Assembly: GCA_902521155.1 (NCBI GenBank)
Contig: CABYQR010000001.1
Coordinates: 180,279 to 244,278 of the forward strand
Direction of reading: 5' to 3'
DNA length: 64,000 nucleotides
From: an uncultured Alphaproteobacteria bacterium
Lineage (GTDB): Bacteria > Pseudomonadota > Alphaproteobacteria > HIMB59
Shown here in pieces: positions 44,507 through 46,347 of the stretch; positions within the stretch are counted from its first letter, which is position 1, and every line of letters begins with the position of its first letter. The position numbers and the translations under genes were made by a program. The notes beneath the pieces are model-generated. The model worked only from the letters and a program-made list of their open reading frames with translations, ran no database searches and was not told the DNA's origin.

Positions 44507-44773
44507 TTATTTAGAAATTGCAGAAATATCTTTTTGAAGTTTAGAAATAGTTCGTGATGCTTTATTTAGATGCATGATTTTTTTTTTGGTAGACTTATGC
44601 AGTATAGACATAACTTGCTTTAATTTTGCCATTGATTCATCTACCTTTTTATCTTTTATAAGCTTATCTATTGCTTTAAGCTGAGTAGAGACATTGGACT
44701 TAACACTTTTATTTACAGCATTTCTACTCTCAGATTGACGTAATCTTTTTTTAGCTGATTTATGTTGTGGCAT
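44507..44773 (-). CDS. rpsT: 30S ribosomal protein S20
   Basis: MPQHKSAKKRLRQSESRNAVNKSVKS. Confidence 0.96.
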   Translation of the reverse strand: MPQHKSAKKRLRQSESRNAVNKSVKSNVSTQLKAIDKLIKDKKVDESMAKLKQVMSILHKSTKKKIMHLNKASRTISKLQKDISAISK

Positions 44774-44831: not shown

Positions 44832-45647
44832 TTATTTTTGTAAAGTGGGTGAAAAAAAAGTGGAACGACCACTCTGAATTATTTTCTTGATTGAAAATGA
44901 TTGTTTTTTGAAAATAACTTCAGATTTTTGATATACCTCGAACATATTTTGGAAGCTTCCTAAAGTTCCATCTGGGGATTTATAATCGTTAATAGAAGAT
45001 CCCCCATTTTTTAAAGATAATTTTAAAACATACCGACAAGATTTGATTAATTTAAATATTTCCTCGCGATTAAGAGAATTAGTCAATCTTAAAGGACTAA
45101 GCCTACAATGAAATAGTGCTTCATTGGCATATATATTGCCTAGGCCTACAAAAATACTTTGATCTAATAGAGCCTGTTTTATGGAAACAGATTTTTTTTT
45201 AAATTTATTAGATATTTCAGAAATATTTATTTTATCTACTAATAAATCTTGACCATAATTATTAAAAAAAGATTTTAATTCTTTGTTATTTAATTTGAAA
45301 AACATCCCGAACCGTCGAGGGTCATTGAAAACAACATAAAACTTATCAAATTCTAAAACTACGTGGTCATGTTTTTCTTTTTGGTAATTTTCTTTCAAGT
45401 AGAATTTTAATCTACCGCTCATTCCTAAATGAATAATAAGAAATGACTGAGAGTTTAACTTTACAAGAATATATTTTGCAAACCTTTTAACTTCTATTAT
45501 TCTTTTTCCTTTAATTGAGTTAAAATCATCTAGATTAAGGTTTTTTCTTAATCTTTTATTTGATTTTTTTATAGAAACAATTTTTTTTCCATTAACTTTC
45601 TTACCTAAATATCTTATTGTGGTTTCTACTTCTGGAAGTTCTGGCAT
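44832..45647 (-). CDS. mutM: Formamidopyrimidine-DNA glycosylase, zinc-ligand cysteines absent
   Basis: MPELPEVETTIRYL, GLGNIYANEALF, QSGRSTFF; C-terminus lacks CxxC...CxxC. Confidence 0.93.
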   Translation of the reverse strand: MPELPEVETTIRYLGKKVNGKKIVSIKKSNKRLRKNLNLDDFNSIKGKRIIEVKRFAKYILVKLNSQSFLIIHLGMSGRLKFYLKENYQKEKHDHVVLEFDKFYVVFNDPRRFGMFFKLNNKELKSFFNNYGQDLLVDKINISEISNKFKKKSVSIKQALLDQSIFVGLGNIYANEALFHCRLSPLRLTNSLNREEIFKLIKSCRYVLKLSLKNGGSSINDYKSPDGTLGSFQNMFEVYQKSEVIFKKQSFSIKKIIQSGRSTFFSPTLQK

Positions 45648-46347
45648 GGATAATAAAAATAGTTCAAATCAATATAATATTACAGATATTTTTGAAAATG
45701 TATCCAAGGCAAAATATGACTTAATGAATGATATTATGAGTTTTGGAGTCCATCGTTTATGGAAAAAATATTATGCAGATTTAATAATTGATAAATTTAG
45801 GAATAATCAAAAAATTCTAGATATTGCCAGCGGAACTGGAGATATTTTTAATCTTTTACCGTTTTCTGAAAACCTTTATGCCATTGATCCTATTGATCAT
45901 ATGCACAAAATTTCTATGAAAAAAAATAAGAAAAAAAAAATAAATTATGAAATTGGATATGTAGAAAATCTTCCTTATAAAAAAAACTTTTTTCAAGTTG
46001 TCTCATGCACTTATGGAGTTAGAAATTTCCAGGATAGGATTAAAGGTTTTAGAGAAATTTATCGATGTGTAAAGAAGAATGGGTATTTTTTTTTTATGGA
46101 ATTTGGCATTCCAAAAGCCACCTTAATTCAAAAACCATATGAATATTTTTTAGATTATTTTCTTCCTTTTAGCGGGAGCATTGTAGCAAAGGATAGACAC
46201 AGTTATAAGTATCTTGCGGATAGTATTAAAGAGTTTCCTAACACGCATCAAATTCAAAAAGAGCTTGAAAAAATTGGCTTTTCCCACATTGAAACAATTG
46301 ATTTCATTTCAGGTGCGAACAGCATATATATATTGCAGAAAAAATGA
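45646..46347 (+). CDS. ubiE: Ubiquinone/menaquinone C-methyltransferase UbiE
   Basis: KAKYDLMNDIMSFGVHRLWKK, ILDIASGTGDIF, ANSIYILQKK. Confidence 0.94.
   Translation: MDNKNSSNQYNITDIFENVSKAKYDLMNDIMSFGVHRLWKKYYADLIIDKFRNNQKILDIASGTGDIFNLLPFSENLYAIDPIDHMHKISMKKNKKKKINYEIGYVENLPYKKNFFQVVSCTYGVRNFQDRIKGFREIYRCVKKNGYFFFMEFGIPKATLIQKPYEYFLDYFLPFSGSIVAKDRHSYKYLADSIKEFPNTHQIQKELEKIGFSHIETIDFISGANSIYILQKK

Follow-up and report, generated by a model that had tools for sequence, protein, structure and literature searches.

A 64,000-nucleotide stretch of DNA from an uncultured alphaproteobacterium (the window) carries a complete mutM/fpg gene whose product lacks all four cysteines of the zinc finger of bacterial Fpg. 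With a probability of roughly 85 %, this gene is the fpg/mutM ortholog of a HIMB59-clade member, the only such gene detected there, and encodes a working, metal-free Fpg with a zincless finger. The clade, HIMB59/AEGEAN-169, is also known as SAR11 subclade V (PMC10308909).

Identity of the window Fpg and its former zinc ligands

The ORF, its strand and its C-terminal reading (EVIFKKQSFSIKKIIQSGRSTFFSPTLQK) were exactly as claimed in the first-pass annotation (Table 1). Profile searches gave a match to TIGR00577 of 240 bits over residues 1–270 (cut-off 203.3) and a full-length match to NF002211 of 260.5 bits (cut-off 212). In the Pfam search, the N-terminal and H2TH domains were matched, while PF06827 (zf-FPG_IleRS) gave no match in the window Fpg. 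The nearest named relatives were AG-325-G13, with 97 % identity, and MED-G104, a MAG of 'alpha proteobacterium HIMB59', with 73 %, which places the host in the HIMB59/AEGEAN-169 clade. The window's own genome (1.11 Mb, 78 % complete) contained one PF01149 gene. Neither there nor in the congener G030, a 99 %-complete, single-contig genome with one Fpg match, was a second Fpg/Nei gene found. A MutY-like partner is also present, with matches that score below the family cut-off.

Table 1. Features of the mutM locus, in window coordinates
Feature	Position	Strand	Basis or variation
mutM/fpg, 271 aa, complete CDS including stop	44832..45647	-	ORF list; TIGR00577 and NF002211 over cut-off; Pfam domains
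Catalytic N-terminus P2-E3	45639..45644	-	Invariant in two alignments; codons read
Lesion-recognition loop region, residues 215-233 (GGSSINDYKSPDGTLGSFQ), full bacterial length	44949..45005	-	Ungapped against 1k82 and 6tc6
Zincless finger, residues 240-271	44835..44930	-	No PF06827 match; AlphaFold2 pLDDT 94-96 for residues 241-270
F246, former Cys1, codon TTC	44910..44912	-	Y/F/W/L/I in genus; ungapped alignment, column counts
Q249, former Cys2, codon CAA	44901..44903	-	K or Q in genus; alignment, column counts
R261, codon CGT, finger Arg clamping lesion-flanking phosphates	44865..44867	-	Invariant in alignments A1 and A3; role per PMC9266487
S266, former Cys3, codon TCA	44850..44852	-	S 27/29, C 1/29, A 1/29 in genus
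L269, former Cys4, codon TTA	44841..44843	-	Leu 29/29 in genus; column counts
S20-like 88-aa ORF (rpsT), downstream of mutM	44507..44773	-	Named by sequence and position, no family search
ubiE-type methyltransferase, divergent from mutM	45646..46347	+	Named by sequence and position

The alignment columns of P2, E3, E6, K58, R111, F113, N171 and R261 were invariant, and those of the functional set as a whole (the catalytic PE N-terminus, Lys58, H2TH Asn171, finger Arg261 and the intercalating M76, R111 and F113) were invariant or nearly so, which bears out the earlier statement that the catalytic N-terminus and the finger arginine are intact. P2, E3 and K58 would support glycosylase/beta-elimination chemistry. 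The lesion loop aligned without gaps to those of E. coli (1k82) and Neisseria (6tc6) Fpg and is thus a full-length alphaF-beta10 8-oxoG loop, which may read 8-oxoG/FapyG.

Gap-free alignment with 6tc6 (Neisseria Fpg) and with Cys4 relatives places the former ligands of the finger at F246, Q249, S266 and L269. A full-length Fpg without any of the four finger cysteines was therefore present, as first annotated; of the residues originally assigned to these positions (I, K, S and L), the serine and leucine were correct, while the isoleucine and lysine lay one residue off. The absence of a PF06827 match and the F/Q/S/L replacements indicate that the window Fpg is a variant and not a zinc-type Fpg.

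Distribution of the loss

Fpg matches were found in 132 of the 162 genomes of the order, including all 20 of good quality. A survey of these relatives, suggested with the original observation, found no CxxC pair in any of the approximately 60 genes whose finger was read, a result far beyond chance. Frameshift or sequencing error was rejected as the cause of the cysteine loss because it is shared by all of these genes; no close relative had intact CxxC pairs. Within the window's genus (29 members), the only finger-ligand cysteine was a third Cys in one member. In the sister family, Cys1, Cys2 and Cys4 were gone, Cys3 was kept in nearly all members ('STFYCP') and the hairpin was two residues shorter; one gene of this family (L304) had lost the third Cys too. 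Stray cysteines occurred elsewhere in the finger of a few members of the order (e.g. L028, L035 and L307). Taken together, the gene sequences indicate that loss of the Cys4 site is a fixed, inherited trait of the order. The mutM frame was intact in the large majority of the genomes. In two sister-family members (L038 in G041 and L313 in G676) it was broken, by either pseudogene formation or an assembly fault.

For comparison, 120 Fpg genes from other alphaproteobacterial families were inspected, including the lowest-scoring ones, among which zincless members would be most expected. A strict regular expression labelled 83 genes 'no Cys4', mostly owing to CxxxC, CxC or other variants, and cysteines were counted instead. 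All 120 fingers had at least three (four, n=90; three, n=17; five or six, n=12; the remaining gene, L073, was Cys4 by eye). Small-genome groups placed near HIMB59 in the tree (f99, f25 and f95) kept three to four finger cysteines, and at least four were present in 49 of 49 beta- and gammaproteobacterial genes (four of them read by eye). The suspicion that a zincless finger is unusual for a bacterium was thus upheld within the Pseudomonadota, the phylum to which the survey was confined. Many alphaproteobacterial fingers deviated in other ways, with either a CxxCxC...C arrangement and Arg or His at the fourth place or a CxxxC pair (L080, L087, L101, L133, L152 and similar genes). The finger cysteines are therefore not 'perfectly conserved', contrary to their description in bacterial Fpg clades (PMC3188539).

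Ancestry and gene neighbourhood

A phylogenetic tree was reconstructed from 99 Pseudomonadota Fpg sequences using the whole protein, finger included. The order formed one clade (support 99/94) containing the two families (100/100 and 100/93), while the deeper branches were rough due to unsettled bootstrap values and uneven base composition. The ubiE gene adjoined mutM in all 29 genus loci and in 45 of 60 other alphaproteobacterial loci, and rpsT adjoined it in 28 of the 29 genus loci. The phylogeny indicates that the zinc site was lost once, in the ancestor of the order, and that this state was then inherited vertically; the distribution of Cys3 indicates a later loss of the third Cys, at least in the window's genus and in L304. 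Horizontal transfer from a plant, virus or phage is unlikely given the tree within the Pseudomonadota, the mutM-ubiE synteny and the profile scores.

Constraint and predicted structure of the finger

Pooled dN/dS within the genus was approximately 0.10 for the finger and 0.14 for the rest of Fpg (from non-independent pairs), and R261, G260, Q258 and L269 were invariant in all 29 members. These values indicate that the finger is under purifying selection, with a constraint at least equal to that on the rest of the protein. A structure model, also suggested at the outset, was generated with AlphaFold2 from a shallow alignment (22 rows) and had a mean pLDDT of 88.9. The finger was predicted as an ordered beta-hairpin with strands at residues 243–246, 249–252, 254–258 and 261–265. 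The model supports the fold, but AlphaFold2 tends toward holo-like folds for zinc domains even without zinc, and so the confidently predicted finger is weak evidence of stability. The nearest solved structures were bacterial Fpg-DNA complexes (TM approximately 0.9), with plant FPG at 0.77–0.81 and mimivirus MvNei1 at 0.77–0.79.

The one conserved arginine that the finger provides in this superfamily grips the phosphates surrounding the lesion (PMC9266487). Of the four cysteines in Lactococcus lactis Fpg, Cys1 and Cys3 are buried most deeply and Cys2 and Cys4 are the most exposed; the enzyme no longer binds DNA once 2-thioxanthine has removed its zinc (PMC4176347). Compensation must therefore be real if the window finger works. 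Here, the buried first cysteine was replaced by aromatic or aliphatic residues and the buried third by Ser (or was kept), while the exposed second became Lys or Gln and the fourth Leu. The retention of Cys3 for longest fits with its burial, alongside Cys1, in the L. lactis enzyme. Packing in place of a metal ion probably holds the hairpin and R261 in position; the finger would then be a metal-free beta-hairpin that nevertheless positions R261 to clamp the phosphates next to the lesion.

Comparison with known Fpg/Nei enzymes

The window Fpg shares orthology and a full-length profile match with bacterial Fpg/MutM (TIGR00577; the BaFpg1 clade of PMC3188539; structures 1k82, 1r2y, 1pm5 and 6tc6), as well as the catalytic and DNA-gripping residues, full-length lesion loop, mutM-ubiE neighbourhood and fold. 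It differs from them in the absence of their Cys4 zinc site, which is usual in this clade but missing from some other clades of the superfamily. Plant and fungal FPG (Arabidopsis thaliana 3twk and 3twl; the PFNei clade) have a zincless finger that presents the conserved arginine, as does the predicted hairpin of the window Fpg. However, plant FPG matched the window Fpg at approximately 85 bits, against 147.7 bits for bacterial Fpg, and the lesion loop of the plant and fungal clade is short (12 residues versus 23; PMC3188539, Table 4), whereas that of the window Fpg is of full length. Why plant FPG does not excise 8-oxoG is the subject of Duclos et al. 2012, going by the title as cited in PMC9266487. 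Human NEIL1 (1tdh) also has a zincless finger, which is required for its activity, but its alignment to the window Fpg was weak and limited to the middle part, leaving the finger unaligned; its substrate range also differs, being mainly oxidised pyrimidines (PMC4982613). Mimivirus MvNei1 (3a42 and 3vk7) shares the zincless finger but is viral and distant (approximately 49 bits). The likeness to NEIL1 and plant FPG drawn in the first-pass annotation thus holds for the type of finger, while the protein itself is a bacterial Fpg with a full-length loop. The finger is read as a convergent zincless finger. No report of a zincless bacterial Fpg was found in the open-access literature searched, most subscription papers being outside its scope; the zincless fingers described there were from plants and fungi, NEIL1 and mimivirus only (PMC3188539, PMC9266487).

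Separately, IMG/VR viral contigs, some longer than 300 kb, contained an Fpg/Nei group with a single finger Cys, e.g. CENGFEVVRELTRDGRTTHWVPEIQ (members L227-L236, L238-L242, L245, L248, L249 and L253). The nearest solved structure to one member, L228, was mimivirus MvNei1 (124 bits, versus 84 for L. lactis Fpg). This group may represent a zincless finger in prokaryotic viruses. Another viral-contig Fpg (L223) had lost the first CxxC pair and kept the second, near the C-terminus (VYGKKEDSLGHAVTRIKQGGRGTYYCPICQ), and is possibly a case of a half-lost zinc site.

Possible causes of the loss

The explanation that was somewhat favoured is drift in a streamlined, AT-rich lineage, in which the metal site decayed without benefit once packing had stabilised the hairpin. 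Three observations are consistent with this: the loss arose once, at the root of the order; the two families have fixed different residues and different hairpin lengths; and, of the zinc proteins tested, Fpg alone is affected. However, purifying selection now acts on the finger, which is therefore no longer drifting.

Resistance to oxidation is possible but doubtful. A repair enzyme free of thiolates would be safe from oxidative ejection of zinc, which could be useful under sunlight and reactive oxygen. Thiolate oxidation by a compound that zincless NEIL1 withstands ejects zinc from L. lactis Fpg and abolishes its DNA binding (PMC4176347), and the cysteine kept longest in the order is a buried one. 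Such protection sits less well with the cysteines retained by UvrA and LigA and by the finger in the other small-genome groups sampled. A fuller version, in which the zincless finger arose independently in cellular bacteria, in an Fpg that still excises 8-oxoG, and was kept as an unoxidisable finger in the sunlit surface ocean, is unlikely.

The first-pass annotation had raised a Zn-sparing adaptation. In such a scenario, selection would have removed the cysteines in response to the scarcity of zinc in surface waters. The host clade is marine and oligotrophic (PMC10308909) and zinc in the surface ocean is extremely low (PMC4771312), but this proposal was not supported by comparison with other zinc proteins and is improbable. 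In the same genome, IleRS retains the PF06827 finger, LigA all four zinc-site cysteines and UvrA its CxxC pairs. The loss is thus specific to Fpg among the proteins tested. This speaks against an economy of zinc; drift with compensation and protection against oxidation of the thiols are the more likely causes. There was also no pair of Cys+ and Cys- Fpg paralogues, a single Fpg gene being found in the own genome and in G030, and one Zn saved per molecule of a low-copy repair enzyme would be a small gain. Furthermore, an iron/zinc chelator gene is reported in AEGEAN-169 genomes (PMC10308909) and other small-genome alphaproteobacterial groups sampled keep the finger (e.g. f99: L090, L116 and L130).

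An apparent loss of the LigA zinc domain (PF03119 missed in G000 and G030) was rejected as all four cysteines are present, with CxC spacing. In LigA of the window's genus and of the f99 genome G156 (among L264-L283), CxC replaces CxxC in the first pair, which is enough for the Pfam ZBD model to miss the domain in both of the genus genomes tested. Ribosomal protein L31 was Cys-less; this was left out as evidence since we take it to be the ordinary alphaproteobacterial form.

Also improbable is a dying, non-functional finger or pseudogene: zinc loss inactivates a bacterial Fpg in which it was tested (PMC4176347) and the frames in G041 and G676 are broken, but the low finger dN/dS, the four invariant finger residues and the predominance of intact frames across the order argue against this.

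Implications

These findings mean that bacterial Fpg cannot be recognised or modelled by the criterion of 'four cysteines'. Within the order, the two families, one with no finger-ligand Cys and the other with one Cys and a shorter turn, form a natural series for the replacement of a structural metal site. The zinc and 8-oxoG traits have so far been confounded, since, of the zincless enzymes described, plant FPG has no 8-oxoG loop and NEIL1 prefers other lesions. If active, the window Fpg would be a natural example, from a bacterium, of an Fpg in which 8-oxoG excision is uncoupled from zinc.
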